From contig JAFEGB010000333.1 of assembly GCA_018240295.1 (NCBI GenBank), positions 1 to 64,000 on the forward strand: a stretch of 64,000 bases of DNA, read 5' to 3'. The notes under the pieces are model-generated. The model ran no database searches. It was given only the letters and a program-made list of their open reading frames with translations, and had not been told where the DNA came from. The position numbers were made by a program, and so were the translations under genes. The stretch's first letter is position 1. Every line of letters begins with the position of its first letter. This document shows positions 55,879 through 64,000 of this stretch, in pieces. The stretch is from Pseudomonadota bacterium (GTDB taxonomy: Bacteria; Pseudomonadota; Gammaproteobacteria; Competibacterales; Competibacteraceae).

Positions 55879-56784
55879 TCAGGCCGCCTCGTCGTCGGCC
55901 TCCGCCGGCGGCAGCAGCGGCATCACGTCGACCGACACTTCGAGCGCGTGCGAACCGCCGCCGATCATGACGCCCTTCAGCGGCGCGACATCGGCGTAGT
56001 CGCGCCCCCAGGCGAGCGTCACGTGGCGTTCGTCGGGCAGCAGGTCATTGGTCGGATCGAGATCGATCCAGCCGAGGCCGGGGATGAACACCGAGAGCCA
56101 GGCGTGCGAGGCGTCGGCCCCGACCAGCCGCGGCTGGCCCGGCGGCGGCAGGGTCTCCAGATAGCCGCTGACGTAGCGCGCCGGCAGGCCGAGCGAGCGC
56201 AGGCAGCCGATGGCCAGATGCGCGAAGTCCTGACAGACGCCGCGGCGCTCCTCCAGCACCTGCGACAGCGGCGTGGCCAGCGTCGAGAACTGCGGGTCGT
56301 AGGTGAATTCCTTGAAGATGCGCCGGTTCAGTTCGAGCACGGCCTCCAGCAAGGGCCGGCCGGCCGTGAACGACGGCCGCGCATAGGCGGCGAGCGCGGC
56401 GTTCGGGCGGATGAACGGCGATTCGAGCGTGTACTGGCGCGCTTCCATCGCGCCGAGCTCGGGCAGGTCGCGCACCAGGCAGACGACCTCCTCCCAGCCC
56501 GGCGACGGCGTGTCGGTCAGCGACGGGCGCGGGGCGACCGTCACGCGCGAGCGCGCCGTGACCTCCAGCGTCTGGTGGATGTCCTGCACCGAGAAGTTGA
56601 CGACGCGGTTGCCGAAGAAGTCGGTGCGCTCGCGCCGCAGTGCCGGCGCCGGCAGGACCTCCAGCGCCGATTCCTCGACGAACTGGCGGCTGGTCTCGCG
56701 CGGCAGCAGCCGGGCTTCGTTGTGGCACAGCGACACGCGCCCGTAGTAGCGGTAGGTCGTGCGGTGCGTGATCTGATAGTTCAT
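55879..56784 (-). CDS. Transglutaminase-like peptidase-fold protein
   Basis: A 301-residue protein with a bacterial transglutaminase N-terminal beta domain (MNYQITHRTTYRYYGRVSL) and a papain-like core. The Cys near residue 184 lies in RRGVCQDFAHLAIGCLRSLGLPARYVSGY, and His and Asp lie in DASHAWLSVFIPGLGWIDLDPTND, so the triad is complete. It lies downstream of the ATP-grasp/alpha-E fusion on the same strand, 24 bases away. In comparable loci this protein is predicted to cut or form isopeptide or peptide bonds; its substrate is unknown. Confidence 0.9.
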   Translation of the reverse strand: MNYQITHRTTYRYYGRVSLCHNEARLLPRETSRQFVEESALEVLPAPALRRERTDFFGNRVVNFSVQDIHQTLEVTARSRVTVAPRPSLTDTPSPGWEEVVCLVRDLPELGAMEARQYTLESPFIRPNAALAAYARPSFTAGRPLLEAVLELNRRIFKEFTYDPQFSTLATPLSQVLEERRGVCQDFAHLAIGCLRSLGLPARYVSGYLETLPPPGQPRLVGADASHAWLSVFIPGLGWIDLDPTNDLLPDERHVTLAWGRDYADVAPLKGVMIGGGSHALEVSVDVMPLLPPAEADDEAA

Positions 56785-56808: not shown

Positions 56809-59322
56809 TCAGATCATCTCGATCAGCTGGCGCGGCTTCTCGGAATGGCTGAAGTGGCTGTTGGAAAGCGCCTCGGACAGCTCGGCGAGCGGAGCGCGCA
56901 GCCGGCGCAGCAGCTTGCCGAGCGCGCGCTGGCCCTTCGGATCGCCGTCGGCGGTGACCTCGGCCAGCGTCGCGATGTCGGCGAGCGCGAGCGTGGTCTG
57001 GGCTTCGAGGATCAGCCGCTCCTCGGCGCTGCGGTACGGCGTGGCCTTCGGGTGCGGCAGGCGCTCGATCTGGCGGCGCAGCCGGCGCAGCAGGTAGCCG
57101 ACCGAGCGCGGGTTGTCCTCGTCGAACAGCAGCAGGTCGAGGATCGCGCTCGGGTGCAGCGCCGAGCGGTAGCGGCGGCGGTAGGCGGTCAGGTTGTCGG
57201 TGGTCGCGAGCATGACCTCCCACAGCGGCACGCCCGGGTGCTCGGTCTTCACGAACACCAGTTCGAGCATCGTCAGCGTGCTCAGCACGCGCTCGACGAA
57301 GCGGCCGATGTCGAGGAAGCGCCAGCCGTAGTGGTGCGGCATGGTCTCGTTGCAGAGGCCGAAGAAGGCCGTCAGCAGCGTCAGGTGTTCCTCCAGCGCC
57401 TTGCGCCCGGCGCTCGCGCTCGGCGGACTCGGCAGGTCGCGCAGGCTCTCGCGCAGGCGGTTCAGCACGCGGAAGGATTCGTCGCCGAGGTGATCGCGCA
57501 CGGCGCGGCCGTTGCGCAGCATGCCGGCGAAGATCTCGCGCAGCCCGCCGTCGTTCTGTTCGTCGAACACGCCGAGGAAGGCCCGGCGCAGCGCCAGATA
57601 GCGCCCGCGCGGACCGGCGTCGACGCTGCCGAGCTCGATGCCGAGCGCGATCAGCAGGTCTTCGAGGCAGCCGTCCTCGCCGGCGCCCTCGCCGCGTTCG
57701 AGCAGGCGCAGCAGCGCCTCGCGCAGCAGCCGGGCGCGGCTGTCGTAGCGCTCGCCGTAGCGCCCGAGCCAGAACAGATTGTCGGCCACCCGGCTCGGCA
57801 GGTCGGCGCCGTCGCGCGTGACCACGATCGGGCCGTGCGCCTGGCGCAGCAGGCTCACGTGCGGTTGCGCCGATTCGGCGAGCACCCAGACATCCTTGGT
57901 CGTGCCGCCCTGCACGGCCATGCGCCCGTCGGGGCTGACGGCGCCGAGGGCGCCCGGCATCACGCGGTAGCCGTCTTCCTCGGCCACGCAGAAGCCGCGC
58001 ATCATCACCGGCTGCGCGACCAGCTTGCGCCCGTCCCAGACCGGCGCGTGCGCCGGGCGCACGTGCTCCTGGGCGACGTACAGGTGCGGCGCGCTGCGGA
58101 TGCGCGCGGCCAGCGTGGCGCGGGCGGCGGCATCGAGGTGCAGGCCGTCGGTGATCGTCTGTTCGGTGAGCTGGTGGATGACCAGGCTGTCGAGCCGGTC
58201 GAGCACGGCTTCGAGGCTTTCGCCGTCCCCGCACCAGTAGCTCTTGACCGGCTGCAGCAGCAGTTCCTCGCCGAGCAGCTCGCGACAGAGCGCCGGCAGG
58301 AAGGGTACGAGTCCGGGGTTTTCGATCGCGCCGATGCCGAGCGCGTTGGCCAGCACCACGCCGCCCTCGCGCACCGCCGCCAGCAGCCCCGGCACGCCGA
58401 GCATCGAATCGCCGCGCAGTTCGAGCGGATCGCACCAGCCGTCGGTGACGCGGCGCAGGATCACGTCGATCGGCTGCAGGCCGCCGAGCGTCTTCAGCGA
58501 GACCTTGCCGTCGCGCACGACCAGATCCTCGCCCTGCACCAGCGACAGCGACAGGTAGTTGGCGAGATACGCGTGCTCGAAGTAGCCCTGGCTCGCCGGT
58601 CCGGGCGTCAGCAGCACGACGTTGGGCTTGTCGACGTGGCGCGGCGCCAGACGCGCGAGCGTCACGCGTTCGGTTTCGAGAAAGCTCGCGAGGCGCTTCA
58701 GCGGCGCCTCGCGGTAGACGGTCGGCAGCGCCCGCGCGAGCGTGATGCGGTTTTCCAGCGCATAGCCGGCGCCGGACGGTGCCTGGGCGCGATCGCCGAG
58801 CACCAGCCAGCGGCCCTGCTCGTCGCGCGCGAAGTCGATGGCGTGGAACACCAGCCAGCGCGCCCCGGCCGGCAGCGCCCCCCAGGCCGCGTGCAGGAAG
58901 CCCGGATGGGCATGCACGAGTTCGGGCGGCAGCACGCCGCGGCGAAACACCGTGCGTGCGCCGTAGAGATCGGCGGCGAGGCGGTTCAGCAGCCGGCTGC
59001 GCTGCGCGAGCCCCGCCTCCAGCTGCGCCCATTCGTCGCCGAGGATCGGCAGCGGGATCGGGTCGAGCGTCCACGCGCGGCTCGCGGCGCGGCCGTCCTC
59101 GTGGGCGTTGAACGTGACGCCGTTCTCGCGCAGCAGCCGCTGGGTTTCCTCGTGGCGGGCCTGAAGCTCCCCGAGGCCGAGCGCATCGAGCTGGGCGAGC
59201 AGGTATTCCCAGGCCGGACGCACCTTGCCGTCGGCATCGAGCAGCTCGTCCCAGCCGCTGCCCGGCGCGTAGTCGCTCAGCAGGTCGTGGACCGCCGGCG
59301 GGAAACTGGTCGGCTCGATCAT
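56809..59322 (-). CDS. Circularly permuted ATP-grasp fused to alpha-E domain
   Basis: An 837-residue two-domain protein. Residues about 1-490 are a circularly permuted ATP-grasp ligase (PPELVHAHPGFLHAAWG, GRWLVLGDRAQAPSGAGYALENR, NPGLVPFLPALCRELLGEELLL). Residues from about 505 form the helical alpha-E domain (LFWLGRYGERYDSRARLLRE, then MPHHYGWRFLDIGRFVER). Elsewhere these domains are often separate neighbouring genes; predictions in the literature place them in the synthesis or attachment of short peptides. ATP-grasp enzymes form amide bonds with ATP. It is flanked by two transglutaminase-like genes on the same strand. Confidence 0.9.
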   Translation of the reverse strand: MIEPTSFPPAVHDLLSDYAPGSGWDELLDADGKVRPAWEYLLAQLDALGLGELQARHEETQRLLRENGVTFNAHEDGRAASRAWTLDPIPLPILGDEWAQLEAGLAQRSRLLNRLAADLYGARTVFRRGVLPPELVHAHPGFLHAAWGALPAGARWLVFHAIDFARDEQGRWLVLGDRAQAPSGAGYALENRITLARALPTVYREAPLKRLASFLETERVTLARLAPRHVDKPNVVLLTPGPASQGYFEHAYLANYLSLSLVQGEDLVVRDGKVSLKTLGGLQPIDVILRRVTDGWCDPLELRGDSMLGVPGLLAAVREGGVVLANALGIGAIENPGLVPFLPALCRELLGEELLLQPVKSYWCGDGESLEAVLDRLDSLVIHQLTEQTITDGLHLDAAARATLAARIRSAPHLYVAQEHVRPAHAPVWDGRKLVAQPVMMRGFCVAEEDGYRVMPGALGAVSPDGRMAVQGGTTKDVWVLAESAQPHVSLLRQAHGPIVVTRDGADLPSRVADNLFWLGRYGERYDSRARLLREALLRLLERGEGAGEDGCLEDLLIALGIELGSVDAGPRGRYLALRRAFLGVFDEQNDGGLREIFAGMLRNGRAVRDHLGDESFRVLNRLRESLRDLPSPPSASAGRKALEEHLTLLTAFFGLCNETMPHHYGWRFLDIGRFVERVLSTLTMLELVFVKTEHPGVPLWEVMLATTDNLTAYRRRYRSALHPSAILDLLLFDEDNPRSVGYLLRRLRRQIERLPHPKATPYRSAEERLILEAQTTLALADIATLAEVTADGDPKGQRALGKLLRRLRAPLAELSEALSNSHFSHSEKPRQLIEMI

Positions 59323-59453: not shown

Positions 59454-62400
59454 TCAGCAGCCCGGACGACGGCGCAGGTCGAGCGTCATCGGCAGGTCGA
59501 GGCTGCGTTCCTCGGCCGGCGCCTGCATCGCGTTCGGCGTGTGGCCGTAGGCCCAGAAGCGGGCCAGACGGCGCGCCTCGGCTTCATTGGCGTTGACCGG
59601 GAACACGACGAAGTTGCGACCGGCCGGGTGCGAGACGTGATACGTGCAGCCACCGATCGAGCGCTGGTTCCAGGTATCGACGAGGTCGAAGACCAGCGGC
59701 GCGTGCACCGGGATGGTCGGATGCAGCGCGGACGGCGGCTGCCAGGCGCGATAGCGCACGCCGGCGACGAACTCGCCCTGACGGCCGGTGGCCGCGAGCG
59801 GCACGCGCCGGCCGTTGCAGGCGAGCACGTAGCGATCCCCGTTGAGGCCTTCGACCTTGACCTGCATGCGCTCGACCGAGGAATCGACGTAGCGCGCGGT
59901 ACCGCCCATGACGGCTTCCTCGCCGAGCACGTGCCAGGGCTCGACGGCCTGACGCAGTTCGAGCTGGATGTCCTGCTGCACGATGCGCCCGTAGACCGGG
60001 AAGCGGAACTCCGAGAACGGCGCGAACCATTCCGGATCAAGGCGCAGGCCGTGACGGTCGAGGTCGGCGAGCACGTCCTTGAGGTCCTCGACCAGGAAGT
60101 GCGGCAGCATCCAGCGATCGTGCAGGCTGGTGCCCCAGCGGCACAGGCGGCCCTGATATGGATCTTCCCAGAAGCGCGCGACCAGCGAGCGCAGCAGCAG
60201 CTGCTGCAGCAGGCTCATGCGCGCGTGCGGCGGCATCTCGAAGGCGCGGAACTCGACCAGACCGAGGCGGCCGGTCGCCGAATCCGGCGAGTACAGCTTG
60301 TCGATGCAGAACTCGGAGCGGTGCGTGTTGCCGGTGAGGTCCACCAGCAGGTTGCGCAGCAGCCGGTCGACCAGCCACGGCTGCGGCACCTCGCCGGTCG
60401 GCATCTCGCGGAACGCGATCTCCAGTTCATACAGGCTGTCGTTGCGCGCCTCGTCGACGCGCGGCGCCTGACTGGTCGGGCCGACGAACATGCCCGAGAA
60501 CAGGTAGGACAGGCCGGGGTGATGCTGCCAGTACGTGACCAGGCTGCGCAGCAGGTCGGGCCGGCGCAGGAACGGCGAATCGGCCGGGGTGGCGCCGCCG
60601 AGCGTGACGTGGTTGCCGCCGCCGGTGCCGGTGTGGCGGCCGTCGAGCATGAACTTCTCGGTGCCGAGGCGCGACTGGCGGGCTTCCTCGTACAGCACGT
60701 GCGTGTTGTGGACGAGTTCGTCCCAGGAGCCGGCCGGGTGGATGTTGACCTCGATGACGCCCGGGTCCGGGGTCACCGCGAACTTCTTCAGGCGCGGATC
60801 GGACGGCGGGGCGTAGCCCTCGATGAACACCGGGATGCTCAGGGCCGCGGCCGTGTGCTCGATCGCGGCGATCAGTTCGAGGTACTGCTCCAGATAGCCG
60901 AGCGGCGGCATGAACACGTACAGATGGCCTTCGCGCGGCTCGATGCACAGCGCGGTGTGCACGATCGTGTCGTCATCGTCGTGCTCGGGCTGTTCCTGCC
61001 AGTCCTGATTGACGCCCTCGTGGTGATGACCCGACACGTCGCGGCCGTCGAGCAGCGCGCTGTAGCGGCGGGCAATCTCGCCGTGCAGGTCGCGCAGCGG
61101 CTTCCTGAACTCGAACAGCGACTGCTCGACCGGCAGGTCGGTGTCGCTGACCCACGGCAGCGCGGTCAGCGGCAGGCGCAGGCCCATCGGCGAATCGCCG
61201 GGGATCAGGTACAGGTGCTCGCGGCGCAGCGGCCACTGCCCGCTCTGCCAGCTGCCGCGCGCGTAGTTCCAGCGCAGCGGCAGCGCGTAGCCGGTCACCG
61301 AGCCGAGGTCGCGCTCCAGCAGCTGCGCCAGGCGGCGGCGCTCCTCGCCATCCTTCAGGTCGTAGTCGAGCGGATCGATGTTGACCGGCAGCGTGCGTTC
61401 GTACCAGAGGTAGTAGTAGGCATCCTCGTAGCCGGGAATCAGGCACTTCGGCGACACGCCGATGCGCGCCGACAGCTCGGCGCCGAAGCGCTGTGCGTCT
61501 GCGGCCGTGACCCGGCCCGGCGCGGTGTCATCGGCGATCAGCGCCTCGTCGCGCCAGATCGGCTCGCCGTCGTTGCGCCAGAAGCAGTTCAGCGCCCAGC
61601 GCGGCAGCGACTCGCCCGGATACCACTTGCCCTGCGTGTAGTGCAGCAGGCCGCCCGGCGAGAACTGCCGGCGCAGGCGCTTGAGCAGCGTGCCGGCCAG
61701 CTTGCGCTTGGTCGGGCCCATCGCGGCGGTGTTCCACTCGGCGCCGTCCATGTCGTCGATCGACACGAAGGTCGGCTCGCCGCCCATGGTCATGCGCACG
61801 TCGCCGGCGGCGAGACGCGCATCGACGGCGTGGCCGAGGGCCTCGATCTCGGTCCACTGCTCATCGGTGTAGGGCTTGGTGACGCGCGGGTCCTCGTGGA
61901 TGCGCGTGACGCTCATCGCGAAGCCGAACTCGACCTCGCACTTGTCGGTGTAGCCGGTGATCGGCGCCGCGCCGGTCGGGTCGGGCGTGGCCGCGAGCGG
62001 GATGTGGCCTTCGCCGGCGAGCAGGCCGGAGGTCGGATCGAGGCCGATCCAGCCGGCGCCCGGCACGAAGATCTCGGTCCAGGCGTGCAGGTCGGTGAAG
62101 TCGACCTCGGTGCCGCTCGGGCCGTCGAGGGCCTTCACGTCGGCGGTCAGCTGGATCAGGTAGCCGGACACGAAGCGCGCGGCGAGACCGAGATGCCGGG
62201 CGATCTGCACCATCAGCCAGGCCGAGTCACGGCACGAACCGGTCCCCTTGGCCAGGGTCTCCTCGGCGGCCTGCACGCCGGGCTCCATGCGGATCACGTA
62301 GCCGACGTCGCGCTGCAGGCGCTGGTTCAGCGCCACGAGGAAGCTCGTGGTGTTGACCGGATCGAGCGAGACATCGCGCAGCCAGTCGAGCAGCAGCGGA

Positions 62401-62771
62401 CCGCGCTCGCGAATCTCCAGGTACGGCGCCAGTTCCTTCTTCAGTTCGGGCGTGTATTCGAACGGGAAGTTGTCGGCGTATTCCTCGACGAAGAAATCGA
62501 ACGGATTGATCACGGTCATTTCCGCGACCAGATCGACCTCGACGTCGAATTCCCTGACTTTTTCCGGGAATACCAGACGGGCCTGGAAATTGCCGAACGG
62601 GTCCTGCTGCCAGTTGATGAAGTGCGGCTGCGGATTGATCTTCAGCGAATACGCCGGGATCGGTGTGCGAGCATGCGGCGCGGGACGCAGCCTGACGATG
62701 TGCGGCGACAGCGATACCGGGCGATCGAAGTGATAAGAAGTCTTGTGGTTCAGTGCAACGCGGATTGTCAT
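59454..62771 (-). CDS. Large transglutaminase-like protein with DUF2126 domain
   Basis: A 1105-residue protein. The N-terminus ([20 protein letters not shown]) and core match bacterial transglutaminase-like proteins. The nucleophile Cys near 179 lies in [20 protein letters not shown], and the His/Asp pair in [21 protein letters not shown]. From about 300 onward is DUF2126, which has glutamine-synthetase/ATP-grasp-like features in some analyses ([30 protein letters not shown]). It heads the minus-strand operon behind a predicted sigma-54 promoter, with AGGGAA before the ATG. It probably joins peptide cleavage and ligation in one protein. Confidence 0.92.
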
Positions 62772-62822
62772 CGGGGGAAGTTCCCTGGGCTCTCACGGCA
62801 ACGGCCGGGCGCGAAGTGTACT

Positions 62823-62838
62823 AGCAACCGGCGTTCCA
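62823..62838 (-). promoter_or_regulatory. Sigma-54 promoter for the transglutaminase operon
   Basis: Minus strand TGGAACGCCGGTTGCT matches TGGCACG-N4-TTGCW with one mismatch and has the invariant GG-N10-GC. The predicted +1 is near 62812, giving a 40-base leader. The NtrC-like sites would be centred near -140 and -172. Confidence 0.65.
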
Positions 62839-62943
62839 GTCCGTGACAATTACGCGGTCCGGAGCATCCGGCAGACAGGCGGGGCCAAAGCCAGGCGAAT
62901 GCCTCTGCGAAGTCCGCCGGTGATCCGACAGTCCTTGCCCTCA

Positions 62944-62992
62944 CGCACCAATGAAGTGCAATTTGCCGTGCAGGACGCACCAATCAAATGCA
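62944..62992. promoter_or_regulatory. Two NtrC-like enhancer sites
   Basis: On the minus strand TGCACTTCATTGGTGCG (62944-62960) and TGCATTTGATTGGTGCG (62976-62992) resemble the NtrC site TGCACC-N5-GGTGCA. Their centres are exactly 32 bp apart, three helical turns, the spacing of the two strong sites at E. coli glnA. They lie between two outward-facing sigma-54 promoters. Confidence 0.7.
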
Positions 62993-63171
62993 CAACGCCA
63001 TGTCCGAGCCGCTTATCCGTCAAAACCAGCCGCCTCACCGGCCTTTTGGTCTAAACCCCTGCCCCATCATGGCGCTGCGAGCGTCCGGCCCCTGCCGCAC
63101 GTCCGGCGGGACCGGCAGGGCTGAGCCGCCGGCACCGTCTGCCGCGATCCCGGACAGCGGAGCCCGGCGAG

Positions 63172-63187
63172 TGGTACGGGGCTTGCT
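63172..63187 (+). promoter_or_regulatory. Sigma-54 promoter for the stand-alone ATP-grasp gene
   Basis: TGGTACGGGGCTTGCT matches the sigma-54 consensus with one mismatch, with GG at 63173 and GC at 63185 separated by 10 bases. The predicted +1 is near 63198, 89 bases before the start codon. The NtrC-like sites would be centred near -214 and -246. Confidence 0.7.
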
Positions 63188-63286
63188 GTTGAAGTAGTCG
63201 TTGCGCCCCCCGGGGAGAGGCAGTTCGGGGGCGCGTCGCAGGCGGCGCCGCATTCAACGGCGCCCGGCACAAGGAATCACACCATC

Positions 63287-64000
63287 ATGAGCATGCTTGA
63301 CTGGCAGCAATACCCCGCAGGGGCCTTCTATGACGAACTGGTCGCGCCCGGCGGTACGCCGCGGCAGGCGGCGCGCACGCTCTGCGAGCACCTCGGCAAG
63401 CTCTCCGATGCCGAGCTGACCGAGCGGCGCACCGCTGCCGAACTGGCGATCAGCGTCATGGGCATCACGTTCACGGTCTATTCCGAAGGCAACATGATCG
63501 ACCGGGCCTGGCCGTTCGACATCGTGCCGAGGATCATCCCGCTGACCGAGTGGACGCGCATCGAGGCCGGCCTGAAACAGCGCGTGCAGGCCCTGAACCT
63601 GTTCATCGACGACCTGTATCACGAGCAGAAGGTCATCCGGGACGGCATCCTGCCGGCCGAGATCCTCGCGCAGTCGGTGAACTTCCGGCCGCAGTGCGTC
63701 GGCATCACGCCGCCGCACCGGGTCTGGGCGCATATCTGCGGCTCCGACCTCGTGCGCGACAAGGACGGCACCGTCTACGTGCTGGAGGACAACCTGCGCG
63801 TGCCCTCCGGCGTCTCGTACATGCTCGAGAACCGCGTGATCACCAAGCGCGTGCTGCCCGAGCTGTTCAAGACCAGCCGCATCCTGCCGGTCGATGACTA
63901 CCCGGCGCAGCTCTTCGAGATGCTGAGCTCGATGTCGCCGCGCCCCGGCGAGGATCCGCGCATCGTCGTGCTGACCCCCGGCATCTACAACTCGGCCTAT
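63287..64000 (+). CDS. Stand-alone circularly permuted ATP-grasp protein (partial, runs off the window)
   Basis: 238 codons are visible with no stop before the window end. The sequence MSMLDWQQYPAGAFYDEL, FDIVPRIIPLTEWTRIEAGL, QRVQALNLFIDDLYHEQK and YVLEDNLRVPSGVSYMLENR is characteristic of the circularly permuted ATP-grasp type 2 family (DUF404/DUF407). AAGGAA lies before the ATG at 63287. It is divergent from the transglutaminase operon and shares its NtrC-like enhancer. In other genomes this gene is followed by an alpha-E and a transglutaminase gene, so more of the system may lie beyond 64000. Confidence 0.92.
   Translation, partial: MSMLDWQQYPAGAFYDELVAPGGTPRQAARTLCEHLGKLSDAELTERRTAAELAISVMGITFTVYSEGNMIDRAWPFDIVPRIIPLTEWTRIEAGLKQRVQALNLFIDDLYHEQKVIRDGILPAEILAQSVNFRPQCVGITPPHRVWAHICGSDLVRDKDGTVYVLEDNLRVPSGVSYMLENRVITKRVLPELFKTSRILPVDDYPAQLFEMLSSMSPRPGEDPRIVVLTPGIYNSAY

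Follow-up and report, generated by a model that had tools for sequence, protein, structure and literature searches.

At the right end of the window, the 64,000-nt stretch of Competibacteraceae DNA analyzed here from a 4.06-Mb genome, two operons face outward from a 515-bp gap (62772–63286). The left operon, on the minus strand, begins with a 1105-aa transglutaminase and DUF2126 protein (59454–62771), followed by an 837-aa protein in which a circularly permuted ATP-grasp is fused to Alpha-E (56809–59322), and then by a second, 301-aa transglutaminase-like protein (55879–56784). The right operon, on the plus strand, begins with a circularly permuted ATP-grasp protein that runs past the end of the window (63287–64000); in relatives, a separate Alpha-E gene comes after the ATP-grasp gene. 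These assignments come from Pfam, which places the transglutaminase, ATP-grasp, and Alpha-E families together at the locus, the combination that marks the system. Both transglutaminase-like cores retain the catalytic Cys-His-Asp residues (Cys180, His229, and Asp245 in the larger protein; Cys184, His227, and Asp243 in the smaller). NCBIfam returned no name for the system’s own proteins.

The gene for aminopeptidase N (pepN; TIGR02414; 53176–55857, minus strand) starts 21 bp past the second transglutaminase gene and is possibly the last gene of the left operon. It was rejected as a conserved operon member: it was seen only beside the operon in the window, and tblastn gave no pepN match at the corresponding locus (L121) of the nearest relative, G001. 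An Anbu subunit was also sought in the source genome and rejected, the sole PF00227 match being on a different contig from the locus and having the length of HslV. Each Competibacteraceae genome searched has one such proteasome-family match, and this single protein looks like HslV. Three relatives, all from one genus, carry urease genes (ureD, ureC, ureF, and ureG were identified) as a cluster downstream of the ATP-grasp and Alpha-E genes on the same strand. The cluster follows Alpha-E by about 150 bp in G019 (locus L142, 4002–12498) and G020 (locus L204); in G016 (locus L205) the distance is about 4 kb. Urease is at another location in most other genomes.

What controls the two operons? A sequence-only reading of the gap had proposed that two outward-facing sigma-54 promoters flank a pair of NtrC sites, and all four elements were found in place. 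The left promoter, TGGAACGCCGGTTGCT, occupies 62823–62838 on the minus strand (read from 62838 to 62823) and would drive the transglutaminase/DUF2126 operon; its +1 is predicted near 62812, leaving 41 bp to the start codon at 62771. The right promoter, TGGTACGGGGCTTGCT, occupies 63172–63187 on the plus strand and would drive the ATP-grasp/Alpha-E operon from a predicted +1 near 63198, with 89 bp between it and the start codon at 63287. Each GG-N10-GC promoter is a single mismatch from the sigma-54 consensus, as had been claimed, and both combine GG and GC dinucleotides 10 bp apart with a TGGCACG-N4-TTGCW context and a distance from the start codon suited to a promoter. Using a matrix hand-weighted from the published consensus, the minus and plus promoters score 16.2 and 16.4 bits. 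These scores were reached in 7 and 2, respectively, of 20,000 dinucleotide shuffles, and jointly in none. No sigma-70-like promoter was found in the 515-bp gap.

The pattern TGGNACG-N4-TTGCW has seven matches in the genome (the reversed control has one), two of them in this gap. Among the others, one precedes nifH, one a HesB/IscA-like gene, and one a gene for a PEP-CTERM-type protein; these genes were named by eye. The promoter upstream of the nifH-like gene (L194; G000:C279:20915–20930) is a strong one, and the source organism appears to carry nitrogenase genes. At L195 and L196, matches precede genes for PEP-CTERM-type and cytochrome c-like proteins, again named by eye.

The first of the two NtrC sites (GCACCAATGAAGTGC, 62945–62959) reads GCACC-AATGA-AGTGC, one mismatch from GCACC-N5-GGTGC, and at 18.5 bits it is the best 17-mer in the gap. 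The second (GCACCAATCAAATGC, 62977–62991) reads GCACC-AATCA-AATGC, with two mismatches, and is the second-best 17-mer at 14.1 bits. The matrix used for these scores was built from 29 sites in glnA and glnK promoters only, with promoters scanned in 14 family genomes, and it retains a prior because the training sites were chosen by their resemblance to the known consensus. The site centers are 32 bp apart, at −140 and −172 of the minus promoter, which agrees with the sequence-only reading, and at about −246 and −214 of the plus promoter. A tandem with 32-bp spacing occurs once in the whole genome, in this gap (reversed control, 0). None of 20,000 dinucleotide-shuffled versions of the gap reached the score of the pair; comparison with shuffled sequence, which had been proposed as a check, thus favors both promoters and the NtrC pair. 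For reference, the glnA promoter of the source genome combines a sigma-54 site and NtrC sites spaced by 31 bp, and its glnK promoter has a perfect NtrC site. Paired sites of the GCACC-N5-GGTGC type upstream of a sigma-54 promoter are the mark of the NtrC regulon, and on sequence grounds both operons would belong to it. A third, weaker NtrC-like site (GCCCCATCATGGCGC, 63061–63075; 11.1 bits), about −130 from the plus promoter, is tentative; a site this good is found in 2.4% of shuffles, and it is absent from the elements listed earlier.

The regulators needed for such control are encoded in the source genome. RpoN is recognized by its Sigma54_DBD domain (E 6e-70), and NtrC scores 752 bits with TIGR01818 (cut-off 558.6), with its gene on the glnA contig, about 3 kb from glnA. 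Among 39 family genomes, 30 have an ntrC above the curated cut-off, including the source genome.

Conservation was assessed by shuffle tests at each of 19 divergent loci, 18 from Competibacteraceae and one from Zobellella endophytica. The plus, ATP-grasp-side promoter is significant (p<0.01) at all 19, the NtrC pair at 17, and the minus, transglutaminase-side promoter at 11 (14 at p<0.05), with no clear match to the minus promoter at the expected place in five. Conservation in relatives, a further check proposed with the sequence-only reading, is seen for every element, to these differing extents. When the spacing was left free between 20 and 69 bp, the best NtrC pair had a spacing of 30–33 bp in 19 of 21 loci. 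In an alignment of the source genome with G001 and G023, the minus promoter is nearly unchanged, and the divergence lies in the central part of the gap; the promoter form TGGAACGCCG[GC]TTGCT is also seen in G001 and G023. The plus promoter is near-invariant in a separate set of ten relatives, mostly in a form like TTGGCTTG-N4-TTTTGCT. Decay has left only half-sites of the NtrC pair in G001, at an unchanged spacing of 32 (p=0.013), and GT replaces GC at −12 of the plus promoter. With its decayed pair and this GT, the G001 gap (L003) offers a natural comparison for how much of the enhancer is needed.

The regulatory unit can also survive rearrangement. In G026, G030, and G033, where the gap is enlarged or rearranged, the ATP-grasp gene still has a sigma-54 promoter to itself and, 71–121 bp upstream of that promoter, an NtrC site. 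Four of the pieces scanned (L092, L098, L099, and L105) were initially too short to reach the ATP-grasp gene. In longer pieces, the unit is present in G030 and G033, and no ATP-grasp gene is within reach in G034 and G038.

The same architecture extends beyond the family. A composite sigma-54 and NtrC score of at least 26 was found in 25 of 80 named loci, which are the best matches to the query rather than a balanced sample, versus about 1.1 on average in shuffles, and 22 of these 25 high composites are directly upstream of a cluster gene. They include loci from Pseudomonas, Burkholderia, Zoogloea and other Rhodocyclales, Methylophilaceae, Methylococcales, Thiocystis, and Zobellella. None of the loci from outside Pseudomonadota (roughly 13 of the 80, judged by record titles) reaches a composite of 26. 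Some loci from Methylococcaceae and one other proteobacterial locus have, in addition, a gene for a 413–436-aa protein with its own sigma-54/NtrC promoter (L018 2643, L023 3482, L027 11767, and L028 692). This gene is divergent from the ATP-grasp gene in L023 and L027, and Pfam gives no confident match for the copy in L018.

Taken together, the gap very probably, at roughly nine chances in ten, holds one NtrC enhancer that is shared by the divergent sigma-54 promoters on its two sides and acts as a nitrogen-limitation switch for both operons. Shuffles, genome-wide counts, and conservation support the elements, which had been suggested to fit one design by their position and spacing. The further proposal that nitrogen limitation switches the system on is supported by the shuffles, the conservation, the glnA/glnK yardstick, and published work on homologous clusters. 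NtrC is well known to act by being phosphorylated, forming a hexamer, and looping to sigma-54 RNA polymerase. At this locus, nitrogen limitation would lead NtrB to phosphorylate NtrC, and NtrC dimers would occupy both sites, three helical turns apart, and assemble into a hexamer. The hexamer could then loop to sigma-54 RNA polymerase at either promoter to drive formation of the open complex. The left operon (transglutaminase/DUF2126, fused ATP-grasp/Alpha-E, second transglutaminase, and perhaps aminopeptidase N) would be turned on together with the right operon (ATP-grasp and Alpha-E). We infer that NtrC binding, looping, and induction take place in the source organism.

Other explanations are far less probable. 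There is some reason to suspect that only one operon is under sigma-54/NtrC control in the source organism, with the other promoter a relic. Five relatives have no recognizable minus promoter, the plus promoter is retained in all, and yet it is the plus promoter that is damaged in the nearest relative. Nonetheless, both promoters score high in the source genome, at levels that shuffles never reach jointly, and the minus promoter is kept almost letter-for-letter in G001 and G023, making a relic unlikely. Even less weight falls on the possibility that the promoters are true sigma-54 promoters served by another enhancer-binding protein with a similar palindrome, in which case the signal would not be nitrogen limitation. 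Candidates are plentiful: the NtrC model matches 31 or more proteins in the source genome, mostly paralogous enhancer-binding proteins. However, a matrix made solely from glnA and glnK sites selects exactly these two sites, and the homologous cluster in B. cenocepacia depends on ntrC itself. The idea that a GC-rich gap produced all four elements by chance can draw on the shortness of the GG-N10-GC cores and the two mismatches in one NtrC site; it is contradicted by the shuffles, the genome-wide counts, and phylogenetic footprinting, and a chance origin is effectively ruled out.

What does nitrogen control imply for the system? The transglutaminase/ATP-grasp/Alpha-E system has no established function, and nitrogen limitation is a condition under which mutants and substrates could be studied. 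NtrC/sigma-54 control is widespread and is kept despite changes in gene order, and this places the role of the system in the nitrogen economy. Within that economy, the probable activity of the enzymes is to make or cleave amide bonds in peptides or proteins, judging from their domains and published co-regulation. Nitrogen control alone does not say what the enzymes do, so storage, scavenging, and tagging stay undistinguished. A more ambitious and rather doubtful proposal is that both modules make up one Anbu-independent nitrogen-starvation pathway that frees or re-routes nitrogen from proteins or peptides. It would work alongside enzymes that release ammonia or amino acids (urease in some relatives, aminopeptidase N here), and in many Pseudomonadota the enzyme system would then be a core branch of nitrogen metabolism under NtrC control.

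There are several known systems with which the locus can be compared. At E. coli glnAp2, two NtrC sites 32 bp apart lie roughly 110–140 bp upstream of the sigma-54 promoter. The NtrC pair here has the same 32-bp spacing, and the family’s own glnA promoters are similar in plan. Unlike E. coli glnA, one enhancer here appears to be shared by divergent promoters, 140–172 bp from one and 214–246 bp from the other.

The closest published parallel is in Burkholderia cenocepacia H111, where I35_5080-83 encode the same gene families as here (a DUF404/407 ATP-grasp, a DUF403 Alpha-E, a transglutaminase, and a large transglutaminase). In an ntrC mutant, expression changes −8.2-fold for the ATP-grasp gene, −9.4-fold for Alpha-E, −9.4-fold for the transglutaminase, and −6.0-fold for the large transglutaminase, and the cluster is listed among the common targets of sigma-54 and NtrC (PMC5491218). 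Related Burkholderia loci (L058, L069, and L084) resemble the window in having a sigma-54/NtrC unit upstream of the ATP-grasp gene. The arrangement differs, with a single four-gene run in B. cenocepacia and two divergent operons sharing an enhancer here, and NtrC/sigma-54 control, shown by expression in B. cenocepacia, is predicted here.

In Pseudomonas putida, the Anbu operon (PP_2685-2688) also has ATP-grasp and transglutaminase genes. PP_2686-2688 are up 11- to 37-fold in nitrogen limitation, an effect assigned to NtrB/NtrC (PMC7801951), and operon genes are attributed to NtrB/NtrC elsewhere as well (PMC3325844). The PP_2688 promoter is induced 3.7-fold by nitrogen limitation, and a PP_2685 promoter fragment is nitrogen-agnostic (PMC8050072). 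PP_2686-2688 are still induced in an rpoN mutant (PMC7801951), so strict sigma-54 dependence does not fit in P. putida. That operon includes Anbu, a proteasome-like subunit, whereas the locus here does not. Proposals for the Anbu version are protein tagging and protein turnover during nitrogen starvation (PMC5666114, PMC6376114). Co-abundance in marine metagenomes has linked the system’s domains with urea metabolism (PMC3597751). A limited search of the literature on Competibacter with nitrogen starvation or NtrC found no paper on this locus, which is not proof of absence.

Nitrogen or NtrC control has thus already been published in P. putida and B. cenocepacia, making this locus a solid further case of an established type of control. 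Added here, as read from the genomes compared, are the predicted divergent layout with a shared enhancer and its conservation, along with the findings that the unit persists through rearrangement and is spread across Pseudomonadota.
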